NCBI RefSeq assembly: GCF_000092225.1
Contig: NC_014158.1
Location: 3,720,001-3,784,000, forward strand
DNA length: 64,000 nucleotides
Direction of reading: 5' to 3'
Source: Tsukamurella paurometabola DSM 20162
Lineage (GTDB): Bacteria; Actinomycetota; Actinomycetes; Mycobacteriales; Mycobacteriaceae
Shown here: piece after piece, positions 15,400 to 20,897 of the stretch
How the letters are laid out: every line of letters begins with the position of its first letter
Numbering within the stretch: position 1 is the stretch's first letter
Made by a program: the position numbers and the translations under genes
Notes under the pieces: model-generated
Told to the model about the DNA's origin: nothing
The model's database searches: none
What the model saw: only the letters and a program-made list of their open reading frames with translations

Positions 15400-17490
15400 C
15401 TACTGGGCCGCACCCAGCCTGTCGAGGACCCAGGCGTACTCGAACGCGGTCTCCCGCCACTTGGCGTACCTCCCGCTGACGCCCGCATGGCCGGCGACCA
15501 TCTCGGTCTTGAGCAGGATCTGCTCACCGGAGGTGGTGTGATCGAGGAGTTTCGCGACCCATTTCGCCGGCTCGGTGGGGAGTACGCGGGTGTCATTGAG
15601 CGAGGTGGTCACCAGCAGCGCGGGATAGGCCTTGGCCTCGACGTTCTCGTACGGCGAGTAGGCCTTCATGTAGCGGTACACCTCGGCGCTCTCCAGCGGA
15701 TTACCCCATTCGTCCCACTCCCCCACGGTCAGCGGGAGCGACGGATCGAGGATCGAGGTGAGCGGGTCCACGAAGGGAACGTCGGCGACGATGCCGCAGA
15801 ACAATTCCGGCGCGAGGTTCGCGACGGCACCCACCAGAAGACCGCCCGCGCTGCCGCCCATGGCGACCAGCTTCGAGGGGGCCGCGCGCCCCGCGTCGAC
15901 GAGATGCCGAGCCACATCCACGAAATCCGTGAAGGTGTTGGTCTTCTCCAGCTGCTTGCCGTGCTCGTACCAGGCGCGCCCCATTTCGCCCCCGCCGCGG
16001 ATGTGGGCGACGGCGAACACGACGCCGCGATCCATGAGCGAGAGCCGGGCCACGGAGAACCACGGATCCAGGGTGGCCTCGTAGGAGCCGTAGCCGTAGA
16101 GCAGGGTCGGAGCGGCGCCCGCGGGGATGTCCTTGCGATGCACCACCGAGACCGGGACCTCGGCGCCGTCGCGCGCACTCACCCAGATCTGTTCCGCGGT
16201 GTACAGCGCGGAGTCGTAGCCCGGCACGTTGACGCGCTTGAGCACCGTCGACGCCCCGGTCGCGGCGTCGAGTTCTAAGACCGTGCCCGGCGTCACGAAC
16301 GATTCGTACGCCAGGCGCAGGCGCGGCGCGTCCCATTCGGGGTTCGCCGCGGGGCCCACGTTGGCGAGCGGTTCGCCCGGATCCCATTCGGTGAACGACG
16401 GTGCTGTCGTGGCTTCGGCGAGCGCGAGGCGGGGCAGGCCTGCGCGGCGGTAGCCGAGCGCCAGGGTGCGCGCGTAGGCGTCGACGTACTCGAGGCGCAC
16501 GTCGTCTCGGTGCGGCACGACGACGGTCCAGTCCTCGGGTGCGTCGACCGGCGCGGAGACCAGCTCGAAGTTGATGCCGGTGCGGTTGTGCAGCAGGAGG
16601 AACCGGTCTTCGCCGTCGAGCACGGCATGCTCCGCGGAGTACTCGACGTCTTCTTGTCGCGGGATGAGCACGCGGAACTCGCCGGTCGGATCGGTCGCCT
16701 CGAGGACCCAGGTCTCGGAGCTCAACGTCGACGATGCGGCGATCATCAGATAGCGCTCGCTGCGGGTGAGCCCGACGCCCACACCGAACCGTTGATCGGT
16801 CTCGTGGAAGACGCGTACATCCTCTGCACCGGAACCGATCTCGTGGCGCCAGATACTGTCGGCGCGCCAGGCATCGTCAACGGTGGTGTAGAAGAGGTGC
16901 CGCGAATCGGGTGCCCACGTGGCGCCGTAGAAGACGCCCTCGACCACATCGGGTAGTACCTCACCGGTGCCGATGTTGCGCACGCGCAAGGTGAATCGCT
17001 CGTCACCGGAAGTGTCCAGCGAGTACGCCAGCAACTCGCCGTCGGTGGAGACGGACGCGGCACCGAGGGCGATGTACTCATGCCCCTCGGCCTCCACGTT
17101 GAGGTCGATCACCACCTGCTCGCCGGGGAGCGGCTGATCGGAGAGGATCGGCGGCGACCAGTCGTCGGGTCCGGTGATCGGTGCACGACAGTGAATGCCG
17201 TACTGGGCGCCTTCCTTGGTGCGGGCGTAGTACCAATAGCCACCGCGACGTTGCGGGACCGACATATCGGTCTCTTGGGTGTGCGCTTTGATCTCATTGA
17301 AGATCTTCTGGCGCAGCGGCTCCTGCGTCGCCGTCGCAGCCTCGGTGTAGGCATTGTGCCGGTGGAGGTAGTCGAGCACCTCCTCGTTCGAGGTGTCGGC
17401 GAGCCAGGCGTAGTCGTCGGTCACGGTGTCGCCGTGGAAGGTCCGTTCACTGGGAACCTTCTTGGCGACGGGCTGGACGGCGTCGGTCAT
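15400..17490 (-). CDS. ptrB: oligopeptidase B-like S9 serine peptidase
   Basis: A 696-residue prolyl-oligopeptidase-family enzyme: an N-terminal seven-bladed beta-propeller (~residues 70-400) that gates access, then an alpha/beta-hydrolase domain. The nucleophile is Ser547 in 'GGSAGG'; Asp and His of the triad fall in 'SLNDTRVLP' and 'AGHAGVSGR'. Oligopeptidase B cuts small cytosolic peptides after Arg or Lys. The ATG overlaps the purC stop (ATGA), so the gene is translationally coupled to purC. In M. tuberculosis this gene is split into two frames (Rv0781/Rv0782); here it is intact. Confidence 0.93.
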
Positions 17491-18380
17491 GCGGCGGCTC
17501 CCGGCCAGTCGGCGAAGCTCAGACCCGAGATGCGTTCGTAGGCCTCGATGTATCGGGTCCGCGTGCGCGCCACGACATCGTCGGGCAGCGGCGGTGGCGG
17601 AGTGCCGGAATCGGTGGACCAGCCGGAATCGGGCCCGGTGAGCCAATCCCGGACGATCTGCTTGTCGAAGCTGGGCTGCGCCCTCCCCGGCTGGTAGAGC
17701 GCAGCGTCCCAGTAACGGGACGAGTCCGGAGTGAGCACCTCGTCGGCGAGGAGGAGTTCCCCGCCCGGGGTGCGACCGAACTCGAACTTGGTGTCGGCCA
17801 GAAGGATCCCACGGTCGCGGGCGATATCCGCGCCGCGGGAGTACACGTCCAGAGTCAGCTCGCGCAGCCGCGTGGCGAGGTCGATGCCGACGTCGGCGGC
17901 GACCCGCTCGAAGGAGACGTTCTCGTCGTGATCGCCCACGGCCGCTTTGGTGGCGGGAGTGAAGATCGGCGGATCGATGCGACTGCCGTCGACCAGCCCG
18001 GCGGGCAACGGAACCCCGCACACCTCGCCGTTCGCCCTGTACTCCTTCAGACCGGAGCCGGTGAGGTAACCACGCGCCACGCACTCGACCTGCACCATGT
18101 CGAGGCGTCGGGTGATAAGCGCGCGACCGAGCACCGACTCGGGGATCCGCGGATCGTCGGCCGGGCCGGCGAGATGGTTCGGCACTCCCAGCGCGTCGAA
18201 GAAGAACACCGACATCGCCGTGAGCACGCGCCCCTTATCGGGGATCTGCGAGTCCAGGATGTAGTCGTAGGCACTGATCCGATCACTGGCGACGAGCAGC
18301 AGGTGCTCGTCGTCGACCGCGTAGAGCTCACGGACCTTGCCCGAATAGATCGGCGTGTATTCGCTCAGTTCAGGACGCAC
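17487..18380 (-). CDS. purC: SAICAR synthetase
   Basis: A 297-residue phosphoribosylaminoimidazole-succinocarboxamide synthase, which joins CAIR and aspartate with ATP in step 8 of purine synthesis. Family blocks seen: 'YSGKVREL' (nucleotide loop), '[10 protein letters not shown]', '[13 protein letters not shown]' and 'LADTKFEFG'. The start is GTG at 18380. A TAGGCT hexamer 6 bases upstream suggests leaderless transcription, with the promoter squeezed between purC and a 59-bp hairpin. purC heads the purC-ptrB unit. Confidence 0.95.
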
Positions 18381-18411: not shown

Positions 18412-18470
18412 ATTGAACACCGTTACCGCGACTGTTTTCCCAGGTCGGACTCGCGGTAACGGTGTTCAAT
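18412..18470. repeat. 59-bp hairpin repeat, left copy
   Basis: A perfect 20-bp inverted repeat (left arm 18412-18431 begins ATTGAACACC; right arm 18451-18470 ends GGTGTTCAAT) around a 19-base loop containing CCCAG and TCGG. A second copy of the same length lies at 19407-19465 in the same orientation, and the DUF559 nuclease gene sits between them. No T-run follows, so it is not a standard terminator. Confidence 0.9.
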
Positions 18471-18515
18471 CGCGACGGCAGGGATCCGGACCGTTCGCTT
18501 GCGCGTCCAATTCAC

Positions 18516-19397
18516 ATGATGCGGCGAACACACGACCTCCTCAGCGAGGCGACTGAGCATGCGCTGCGCGGGGCCTCTGTGTCGGTGATCCGCGGCGTCC
18601 GGCGCGAGGGAACGGAGGGACCGTCCGGCGGCGATATCCTCGACGCACTCCAGGTCGCCTACCCCGAAGCCGTCTTCGCGGGCTGGACGGCGGCAGCGCT
18701 GCACGCAGTCCCCTACTCCGATGGGCATCCTCCGGAGATTTGGCTTCGCGAGCAGCGCAGGCGCCAGGGCATCGTCGTGCGGTGCGGTCATCTCGCACCG
18801 TCGGACGTCGACGTCCGGTCGCATCGGTACGTGACTTCGGCGGTTCGGACCGCGATCGACCTCGCCCGCTTCGTGCCCGGAGACGAGGCGATCGTCGCCG
18901 TCGATCAATGCTTGCGAACCGACTCGGCCGGTCAGTCCGTCACGACCAAGCGCGACATGATCCGGTACCTCGACGATCACCCACGGTTCTATGCCGGGCG
19001 GCGCGTCCGCGCCGTGCTCGACGAGGCCAGCATCGGGGCCGAATCCCCTTGGGAGACGTACTCCCGCCTCGTCGTCCACCGCGCCGGATTCGACATGTTC
19101 GTTCCCCAGCAACCGATCCCGGGAACCTCCTATCGTGTCGACCTGGGATCGTCGAAGTACGCGATCGCCATCGAATACGACGGGGCCTACCACCGCTCCG
19201 TGCCGCAGCAGCGCGTGGACATCGCGCGCTGGAACACGATCACCGGTCTCGGGTGGAGCATCATTCGCGTCACCTCCGACACGCTGCTGCGCAATCGTCC
19301 AGCTTTCCTCGCCCGGACCGAGAAGGAGCTGCGATCCCGTGGGTGGCGGGGACCTTCGCCCTCGATCCCACCGCTGCGGCTCCCCGCCGCGGGGTGA
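18516..19397 (+). CDS. DUF559 (Vsr-like nuclease fold) protein with AbiEi-like N-terminal region
   Basis: A 293-residue protein of a family often present in many copies in Mycobacteriales. Residues ~50-130 resemble the AbiEi antitoxin region ('AGWTAAALHAVP', then 'VTSAVRTAIDLARF'). Residues ~190-290 are a DUF559 domain with PD-(D/E)xK-like residues D209, E220 and D222, plus H226 ('RVDLG', 'IAIEYDGAYHR'), which suggests metal-dependent DNA cleavage or nicking. I start at the ATG at 18516; a frame extends to a GTG at 18462, but that lies inside the hairpin repeat. The gene is alone between purC and purB and enclosed by two matched 59-bp hairpins, which suggests a mobile or selfish cassette. Function unknown. 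Confidence 0.75.
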   Translation: MMRRTHDLLSEATEHALRGASVSVIRGVRREGTEGPSGGDILDALQVAYPEAVFAGWTAAALHAVPYSDGHPPEIWLREQRRRQGIVVRCGHLAPSDVDVRSHRYVTSAVRTAIDLARFVPGDEAIVAVDQCLRTDSAGQSVTTKRDMIRYLDDHPRFYAGRRVRAVLDEASIGAESPWETYSRLVVHRAGFDMFVPQQPIPGTSYRVDLGSSKYAIAIEYDGAYHRSVPQQRVDIARWNTITGLGWSIIRVTSDTLLRNRPAFLARTEKELRSRGWRGPSPSIPPLRLPAAG

Positions 19398-19406
19398 GCG
19401 ACGCGC

Positions 19407-19465
19407 GTTGAACACCGTTACCGCGAGGAAAGCCCCAGTTCGGCGCCGCGGTAACAGTGTTCAAT
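19407..19465. repeat. 59-bp hairpin repeat, right copy
   Basis: Inverted repeat with arms 19407-19426 and 19446-19465 and a 19-base loop. By hand it matches the left copy at about 46 of 59 positions: 19 of 20 in the left arm, 18 of 20 in the right arm, and CCCAG-TCGG in the loop. Its stem has mismatches at both arm ends and one C-A mismatch inside. It starts 9 bases after the nuclease stop and ends 4 bases before the convergent purB stop. Confidence 0.9.
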
Positions 19466-19469
19466 CGGG

Positions 19470-20897
19470 TTAGAGGATCGGGGCCGGGGAGTAGTTCGCT
19501 GCGTCGGGGTATGCGGCGGCGAGAGCCTCGACATCGGCGACGACCTGAGCGACCTGGGCCTCGGCGGCGCCGGTGAACGCGGCACGGTCGGCGAGGGCGG
19601 CGTCGAGCTGATCGCGGGTGAGGCCCAGGCGATCATCCGCGGCCAGGCGGTCGAGCAGGTCGGGCTCCTTGCCCTCCTCGCGCATGGCGAGCGCCACCGC
19701 GACGGCGTGCTCCTTGATCGCCTCGTGCGCCACCTCACGACCGACGCCGTTGCGCACTGCGGCCATGAGCACGCGGGTGGTGGCGAGGAAGGGCAGGTAA
19801 CGGTTCAGTTCGTTCTCGATCACCGCCGGGTACGCACCGAACTCGGCGAGCACCGTCAGGAACGTCTCGAACAGTCCATCGATGGCGAAGAAGGCATCGG
19901 GCAGGGCCACGCGGCGGATCACGGAACAGAAGACGTCACCCTCGTTCCACTGCACACCGGCCATCTCGGCCGCCATCGAACCGTAGCCACGCAGGATCAC
20001 GGTCAGCCCGTTCACCCGCTCGCACGAGCGGGTGTTCATCTTGTGCGGCATCGCGGAGCTGCCCACCTGGCCGGGCTGGAACCCTTCGGTGACCAGCTCG
20101 TGCCCGGCCATCAGCCGGATCGTCGTGGCCATCGACGACGGTCCCGCCGCCAACTGCACGAGGGCACTGACCACATCGTGGTCCAGCGACCGCGGGTACA
20201 CCTGCCCCACGGAGACGAAGGACTTCGAGAACCCGAGGTGCGCGGCGACCCGCGCCTCCAGCTCGGCGAGCTTGTCGGGATCGCCGCCGAGCAGGTCGAG
20301 CATGTCCTGCGAGGTGCCCATGGGCCCCTTGATGCCGCGTAGCGGGTATCGGGAGAGGAGGTCATCGACGCGCGCGATGGCCACCAGGAGCTCGTTCGCG
20401 GCCGACGCGAAGCGCTTTCCGAGGGTCGTGGCCTGGGCCGCGACGTTGTGCGAGCGACCGGCCATCACCACGGACGAGTATTGCGCCGCGCGCTCCCCGA
20501 GCCGCACCGCGACCGTCACCGCGTGATCACGCACGTATTCCAGCGAGCGGAGGATCTGCAGCTGCTCGACGTTCTCCGTGAGATCGCGCGAGGTCATGCC
20601 CTTGTGGATCTGCTCGAAGCCGGCGAGCGCGCTGAACTCCTCGATCCGCGCCTTCACATCGTGCCGGGTGACCCGCTCGCGCTCGGCGATGGAGTCGAGG
20701 TCGACCTGATCGACGACGGCCTCGTACGCCTCGATGGCACCGTCGGGCACGTCGATCCCGAGGTCGCGCTGGGCCTTGAGCACGGCGATCCACAGCTGGC
20801 GCTCCAGCACGATCTTGTACTCGGGCGACCATAGCTCCCGCATGCGCGGGCTGGCGTACCGGTTGGCGAGGACGTTCGGGATACGGGGGGTGCTCAC
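19470..20897 (-). CDS. purB: adenylosuccinate lyase
   Basis: A 475-residue fumarase/aspartase-superfamily enzyme that splits SAICAR to AICAR and adenylosuccinate to AMP, releasing fumarate. The signature 'GSSAMPHKMNTRSCERV' (flexible loop with catalytic Ser) and 'TSRDLTENVEQLQI' are clear, and 'GRSHNVAAQATT' carries a catalytic His region. It starts with GTG; GAGAAT lies 6 bases upstream, so it may be leaderless. In the reading direction it is followed by the right hairpin and the convergent nuclease gene, which separates it from purC. Confidence 0.96.
   Translation of the reverse strand: MSTPRIPNVLANRYASPRMRELWSPEYKIVLERQLWIAVLKAQRDLGIDVPDGAIEAYEAVVDQVDLDSIAERERVTRHDVKARIEEFSALAGFEQIHKGMTSRDLTENVEQLQILRSLEYVRDHAVTVAVRLGERAAQYSSVVMAGRSHNVAAQATTLGKRFASAANELLVAIARVDDLLSRYPLRGIKGPMGTSQDMLDLLGGDPDKLAELEARVAAHLGFSKSFVSVGQVYPRSLDHDVVSALVQLAAGPSSMATTIRLMAGHELVTEGFQPGQVGSSAMPHKMNTRSCERVNGLTVILRGYGSMAAEMAGVQWNEGDVFCSVIRRVALPDAFFAIDGLFETFLTVLAEFGAYPAVIENELNRYLPFLATTRVLMAAVRNGVGREVAHEAIKEHAVAVALAMREEGKEPDLLDRLAADDRLGLTRDQLDAALADRAAFTGAAEAQVAQVVADVEALAAAYPDAANYSPAPIL

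Follow-up and report, generated by a model that had tools for sequence, protein, structure and literature searches.

What kind of genetic unit lies between purC and purB in Tsukamurella paurometabola DSM 20162, where a single gene for a putative nuclease is bracketed by two matched hairpins? The initial annotation, made on the window (the whole stretch of DNA that was analyzed, 64,000 nucleotides, positions 3,720,001-3,784,000 on contig 1 of a two-contig genome of 4,479,724 bases), had proposed a selfish or domesticated cassette. This proposal gained from what was then found: full, one-hairpin and empty alleles, matched pairs elsewhere and, for the two clades with the best sampling, a hairpin sequence that goes with the nuclease clade. 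We consider it probable that the unit is a palindrome-bounded nuclease cassette, selfish or formerly selfish, in which the nuclease recognises the cassette's own palindrome and brings about copying and gene conversion between copies. The locus consists of the following features, numbered from the first letter of the window.

17487..18380, minus strand: purC, the left neighbour, annotated in a named T. tyrosinosolvens record
18412..18470, plus strand: left 59-bp palindrome (hairpin A), with perfect 20-bp arms and a 19-nt loop containing CCCAGGTCGG
18482..18508, plus strand: ECF-sigma-like promoter motif GGATCC-N16-CGTCC, just 5' of the start codon
18516..19397, plus strand: gene for an AbiEi-like plus DUF559 (Vsr-like PD-(D/E)XK) nuclease of 293 aa, identified with Pfam and PADLOC
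19407..19465, plus strand: right 59-bp palindrome (hairpin B), oriented like A and identical to it at 46/59 positions
19470..20897, minus strand: purB, the right neighbour, annotated in the named T. tyrosinosolvens record

Most of the initial description of the locus stands. Both neighbours were found where they had been placed, and the T. tyrosinosolvens record has the identical gene order purC, DUF559, purB. The two hairpins share one orientation, and the match given as about 46 of 59 positions was reproduced by a recount. The 20-bp arms and 19-base loops ascribed to both apply to hairpin A but not to hairpin B, which has 18-nt arms with one mismatch and a 21-nt loop. Folding of the plus strand with DNA parameters gave z values of -8.6 for A and -5.7 for B, with 0 of 200 shuffles as good in each case, and, when as many as 3 mismatches are allowed, the window contains 4 occurrences of the 18-base arm motif versus a mean of 0.01 over 100 shuffles. 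A search against Rfam returned no family above threshold (best E 0.34 and higher), and NCBIfam gave very weak matches only.

The protein combines an AbiEi-like region with a Vsr-like nuclease domain, as had been read from the letters: Pfam DUF559 (PF04480) scores 27.9 bits, above the curated cut-off of 20.6, and PADLOC AbiEi models match with a best E of 5.3e-6. The only other Pfam match in the unit, the MTES_1575 REase model, reaches 35.4 bits, under its cut-off of 38.2; no transposase or HUH domain was found by this search, which agrees with the earlier statement that a transposase is absent. Across 26 aligned homologs, E180, D209 and H226 are invariant and E220 is nearly so, while D222 deviates in three rows. 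The residues singled out before were D209, E220 and D222; E180 and H226 had not been named. The best-ranked match of the modelled fold (residues 177-277) is 3r3p, the homing endonuclease I-Bth0305I, and the fold also aligns with PD-(D/E)XK, Vsr-like nucleases. Judged from this model, the catalytic domain resembles those of I-Bth0305I and Vsr. In the excerpts of the literature that we used, a Caulobacter DUF559 protein is treated as a Vsr-like repair enzyme (PMC12907096), and MTES_1575 is a Vsr-type domain in a large fusion protein (PMC3710099).

The unit differs from the known systems to which its protein is related. It shares with the EDxHD homing endonucleases (I-Bth0305I) the predicted EDxHD/Vsr catalytic fold, but here there is no intron or intein, and the gene resides in a bacterial chromosome. 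A classical homing gene interrupts its target, whereas here the presumed target palindrome is intact on both sides of the gene, and one is present in solo alleles; for a classical homing gene to fit, the target would have to be something other than the palindrome. In contrast to Vsr very-short-patch repair endonucleases, the protein has an extra AbiEi-like domain, its gene has purC and purB as neighbours, and palindromes bracket it. From the AbiEi antitoxins, Rv2827c and type IV AbiE it is distinguished by its fusion to a nuclease and by the absence of an adjacent AbiEii toxin gene, the immediate neighbours being purC and purB.

Proteins of this AbiEi-DUF559 architecture are common. At E <= 1e-15, at least 90 of 121 genomes sampled across the order have one, and at E <= 1e-20, 72 of 148 sampled across the class do, and some relatives have 12 to 14 copies per genome among the matches listed. 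A search of 50,697 phage records gave 1 weak match, and 15 plasmid records matched. The best of these, 'plasmid 22' of T. tyrosinosolvens, was not counted as plasmid carriage because its purC-DUF559-purB content looks like a piece of chromosome.

The promoter-like motif GGATCC-N16-CGTCC, which we take to be of the ECF-sigma type, recurs in the form GGATCC/GGAACC-N16/17-CGTCC directly before the start codon in 24 of the 31 AbiEi-DUF559 homologs of the genus, on a background of 307 matches in 2.47 million bases (both strands, true sites counted). As far as the sequence allows one to say, transcripts starting from it would be almost leaderless. The motif is also present in a clade without palindromes. 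At the other end of the gene, the nuclease reading frame crosses the right palindrome in three cassettes (L077 in G005, L080 in G003 and L081 in G008), so that the palindrome itself encodes the last nuclease residues there.

Is the arrangement peculiar to this locus? We searched around DUF559 genes with a pair detector that assumes no sequence and scores a stem on each side together with the likeness between both stems; it misses imperfect stems and was aimed solely at DUF559 genes. Within the genus, 21 of 31 homologs (the loci returned from 51 match rows, fragments included, plus L027; L087 and L090 lie near contig ends) scored at least 40, versus 0 of 87 outer flank pairs. At a score of at least 20, 25 of the 31 homologs pass, but so do 7 of the 87 controls. 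One locus (L104) scores 22 despite stems on both sides because a frameshift misplaced its end. For other genera of the order, 60 regions were picked among the matches listed, before their flanks were known: 23 reached a score of 40, versus 0 of 177 control pairs, and 27 reached 24, versus 0 of 238 shifted gene-sized windows of the same DNA; left-right pairs combined from different loci reached 24 in 36 of 3540 cases. The class set comprised 25 regions, all but two from orders other than this one; 6 of the 25 scored at least 24, versus 1 of 600 different-locus pairs.

Stem sequences vary from cassette to cassette, and not every homolog has a pair. No matched pair was detected in 26 (score >=20) to 37 (score >=40) of the 60 order regions, nor in 19 of the 25 class regions at >=24, which reflects decay, element loss or detector limits; in the genus, the clade of L027, L101 and L102 is devoid of flanking palindromes. 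A distant DUF559 gene of the window genome (L019, contig 1, near 3,395,900) has the matched stems CTGGGCCGT and CTTCGGGCCGT, with a score of 36.

The observation thus extends beyond the window, and the arrangement recurs in other actinobacteria. The prediction that such hairpins flank other DUF559 genes has come true both in the genus and in the order, and the opposite outcome, hairpins spread widely with no link to DUF559 genes, was not seen: they are spread and linked. The same counts bear on the idea that the palindromes are ordinary repeats that stand beside the gene by chance, for example as both gather in safe intergenic gaps. Solo palindromes and nuclease genes are indeed both intergenic, but the palindrome sequence is clade-specific, and the scores seen around the genes (40 in 21/31 and 23/60, 24 in 27/60) were reached by none of the 87, 177 and 238 controls, respectively. 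Chance adjacency, for which three control designs were used in all, is refuted at the level of these controls, and we regard it as extremely improbable.

The region between purC and purB was readable in 14 of the 16 Tsukamurella genomes and not in the other 2. It carries a palindrome, the gene and a second palindrome in eight of them (G000, which is the window genome, G001, G002, G003, G006, G007, G009 and G015), a solo palindrome without the gene in three (G004, G005 and G008), and no palindrome in three (G010, G012 and G013), where the gap measures about 6-29 bp. The G007 cassette is frameshifted, and its right palindrome is degenerate. For strains without the gene, the initial annotation had anticipated a gap with one hairpin or none, and this is what the locus shows, as does the site S5 described below; the refuting outcome, a gene found at this place throughout and lacking hairpins, was not seen. 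Palindromes at the locus belong to type 1 (TTGAACAC...; full in G000, G001 and G015, solo in G005) or to type 2 and similar (TTCCCTGCGG...; full in G002, G003, G006, G007 and G009, solo in G004 and G008). In G008, the left outer flank of the solo palindrome is that of the full G002 and G003 cassettes, and the right outer flank is that of G002.

Full and solo alleles were read side by side at two sites, this one and S5, which has a solo palindrome in the window genome and whose neighbour is presumably an rsmB-like gene. Fifteen of the 16 genomes were read at S5: four have a full cassette (G003, G005, G008 and, frameshifted, G001), two decayed remains (G009 and G012), four a solo palindrome (G000, G004, G014 and G015) and four no palindrome (G002, G006, G007 and G013), and G010 has unrelated sequence. 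The S5 solo palindromes of G000 and G014 have the stem TTACGGAG; the other palindromes read in these two genomes mostly have TTACCGCG. The former would be compatible with a remnant of a GGAG-kind cassette that S5 once had and then lost. At a third site, S3, the palindrome is present in 9 of 15 genomes and one more has half of it; it is missing from G006, G013 and G014 with no visible duplication, G007 retains at most a remnant, and G010 is again unrelated.

At the empty sites read, no target-site duplication was seen by eye when empty and occupied alleles, which come from different species, were compared; the earlier remark was likewise that none is visible. Also by eye, the loop orientation at the sites S2 and S4 (L008, L010, L221, L233-L236, L259-L279) differs between species at the same site, so the palindromes invert or are re-inserted.

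Solo palindromes are dispersed through the genomes. The window genome has seven strong copies and two weaker ones, found with a model built from the seven, and five of the seven strong copies are solo. The exact two-arm pattern, searched across named genome contigs, occurs in Tsukamurella only, in 4 stretches of 3 genomes, and the palindrome model has 2 to 43 matches per genome in 13 of the 16 Tsukamurella genomes (both strands counted, among the matches listed). G004 has 30 such matches (both strands, among the matches listed) and no nuclease homolog at E <= 1e-10, which fits a recent loss of the gene but is not proof of it. BLAST with the palindrome of one cassette of G022, which belongs to a different genus, gave 11 matches in that genome: three lie at the cassette itself and eight at other places. 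Of 6 solo regions examined with the stem detector (score >=13), only 2 showed such a stem. Contig 1 of the same genome has tandem palindrome pairs about 95 bp apart, at 1,090,854/1,090,949 and 4,957,743/4,957,836.

Such dispersed hairpins could have a regulatory role. The AbiEi-like part would then autoregulate its gene at the left palindrome, the right palindrome would end transcription and the solo copies would be terminators or regulatory sites of other genes, with the nuclease acting elsewhere, in Vsr-like repair or defence. AbiEi antitoxins bind inverted repeats of their own promoter, according to the part of PMC3985639 consulted, and three of the five solo copies of the window genome (S1, S3 and S5) lie directly behind a stop codon. 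By eye, four species without the S5 palindrome (L253, L254, L256 and L257) have a terminator-like hairpin there between the same convergent genes, which also speaks for this explanation. However, the left palindrome precedes the promoter-like motif, and an operator leaves unexplained the matched copy behind the gene, the dispersed solo copies, the absence in relatives and the homogenisation within genomes. We think it unlikely that operator or terminator function accounts for the palindromes, although such a role and a selfish one could coexist.

The selfish cassette proposed here is further characterized by the relationship between palindrome and enzyme. Palindrome types were assigned by eye, with L093 counted as type 2 by its left palindrome. 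A maximum-likelihood tree of 30 nucleases groups the enzymes with type-1 palindromes in a clade (support 96/94) found between purC and purB and at S5, and those with type 2 in another (99/96) found between purC and purB and at two further loci. Clades are also formed by type 4 (92/93) and type 6 (95/92), but not by the two type-3 rows. G003 has enzymes of both main types, type 1 at S5 and type 2 between purC and purB. Since the type-1 and type-2 clades extend across loci and both occur in G003, the palindrome tracks the enzyme rather than the place or the genome in these two best-sampled clades. A Mantel test on the 21 of 31 cassettes with a score of at least 40 gave r 0.593 (0 of 5000 permutations; the left arm used for L085 was a shifted one), but this test is confounded because same-locus cassettes inherit their palindromes by descent.

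Palindromes within one genome are also more alike than those of different genomes. Mean values of arm identity were compared for 47 of 58 palindromes, those of the GAAC kind (the 11 without GAAC near both ends, ten of them from between purC and purB and of type 2 or similar, were left out; the terminator-like hairpin at S5 of G002 was included by mistake; and for S1 only the G000 copy passed the detector, those of G009 and G014 being imperfect): identity was 0.857 within the same genome at different loci (n=92), 0.715 at the same locus in different genomes (n=190) and 0.705 when both differed (n=793). The second value is barely above the third, and when genome labels were shuffled 2000 times inside each locus, the within-genome excess was never reached. 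Of 14 further solo copies read in G005, 10 have a left arm identical to TTGAACACCGTTATGGAG. Homogenisation within genomes is thus observed, and such a pattern would arise if one palindrome were copied repeatedly over others; ordinary recombination could also produce it.

These data bear on whether the cassette might be moved in trans by an enzyme acting on folded hairpins, such as an integron tyrosine recombinase or an IS200/IS605-type Y1 HUH transposase, with the nuclease as cargo. Both attC-bounded integron cassettes and IS200/IS605 ends present direct-orientation hairpins on both sides of a gene, and the lack of a target duplication by eye would suit such a mechanism. The unit itself differs from them, as from an insertion sequence, in having no integrase, HUH transposase or other transposase gene. 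A general recombinase would not leave a palindrome type that follows the nuclease clade, and the only close same-strand pair noticed around ordinary, non-DUF559 genes (G009, near 705 kb, among the matches listed) consists of two unlike subtypes and was rejected as a candidate. Matched pairs were sought around DUF559 genes alone, and other cargo may exist. Overall, mobilisation in trans seems to us quite unlikely.

The nuclease changes faster than its neighbours. In six species, it is 56-63% identical to the window protein, while purB is 91-93% identical and the first 129-141 residues of purC are 91-95% identical. We also weighed a domesticated remnant, that is, a formerly mobile unit whose nuclease now has a host job in repair or defence and whose palindromes are fossils. 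The full state in 8 of 14 readable genomes between purC and purB would be compatible with it, as would the ECF-like promoter motif, retained even in the clade without palindromes. On the other hand, near-alike palindromes within a genome and at both ends of many cassettes suggest recent activity, and the frameshifted and decayed copies in relatives fit turnover. We judge a mere remnant rather improbable.

The closest known counterpart of the selfish cassette is REP/RAYT (TnpA_REP), described in the excerpts consulted as a palindrome-bracketed gene with dispersed copies, co-evolution and fast change (PMC2817692; PMC8266576). Both systems have one nuclease gene between two palindromes, palindromes dispersed intergenically, co-divergence of palindrome and protein, and a gene that changes faster than its neighbours (as far as described in that part of PMC2817692). 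They differ in the enzyme, a Y1 HUH enzyme of IS200/IS605 relation there and a Vsr-like PD-(D/E)XK nuclease here, and in the palindromes, which are inverted there and direct here. The palindromes here are 57-65 bp with long arms, and no common GTAG-type tag was noticed by eye beside the aligned copies. REP elements number hundreds of copies, in contrast to 2 to 43 model matches per genome here, among the matches listed. The unit is not a RAYT, because its enzyme is unrelated to HUH transposases and its palindromes are direct. Enzyme and orientation set it apart, but the architecture is close, and a view that puts architecture first could group the two. In the open-access literature (preprints and most subscription papers were outside its scope), we found no report of a palindrome-bracketed DUF559 cassette and, among the titles and abstract openings listed, no link of the family to a palindrome, and none of the open-access papers mentioning DUF559 also contained 'inverted repeat'. 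The arrangement suggests a self-spreading DNA unit of a kind not described before.

How might it spread? The cassette has the order palindrome, putative promoter, nuclease gene, palindrome, with the palindromes in direct orientation. AbiEi proteins bind inverted repeats (PMC3985639, in the part consulted), and I-Bth0305I acts as a dimer on a target of about 60 bp (PMC3943268, likewise); we therefore propose that the nuclease, probably as a dimer, binds both arms of its own 57-65-bp palindrome. It would cut or nick in or near the loop, and a solo palindrome so cut would be repaired from another copy. With a full cassette as repair template, the gene would be copied in between two palindromes; with a solo copy as template, the palindrome sequence would be homogenised. 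Recombination between the cassette ends could remove the gene and leave one palindrome, in the manner of a solo LTR. If the palindrome is what the enzyme cuts, the intact copy at each cassette end would leave the donor open to attack by its own nuclease, which speaks against the scheme. In this scheme, the binding and cutting of the palindrome by the nuclease and the route by repair copying are what we infer, and they would account for alleles, co-divergence and homogenisation that are themselves observed.

More tentatively, and with somewhat less confidence than doubt, we suggest that actinobacteria widely carry mobile elements of a new class, in which a nuclease homes into and out of its own palindrome with an intact target on both flanks, as a convergent, non-HUH counterpart of REP-RAYT. 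Enzyme and palindrome would then diverge jointly, and lineages would replace each other at one site, as types 1 and 2 may have done between purC and purB. If true, this would be a second, independent origin of REP-like elements and would offer many natural enzyme-palindrome pairs for studying change in DNA recognition. It would also give the AbiEi-DUF559 family its function: these proteins are common yet unexplained, and a problem of annotation would be solved should every one of them read a palindrome of its own.
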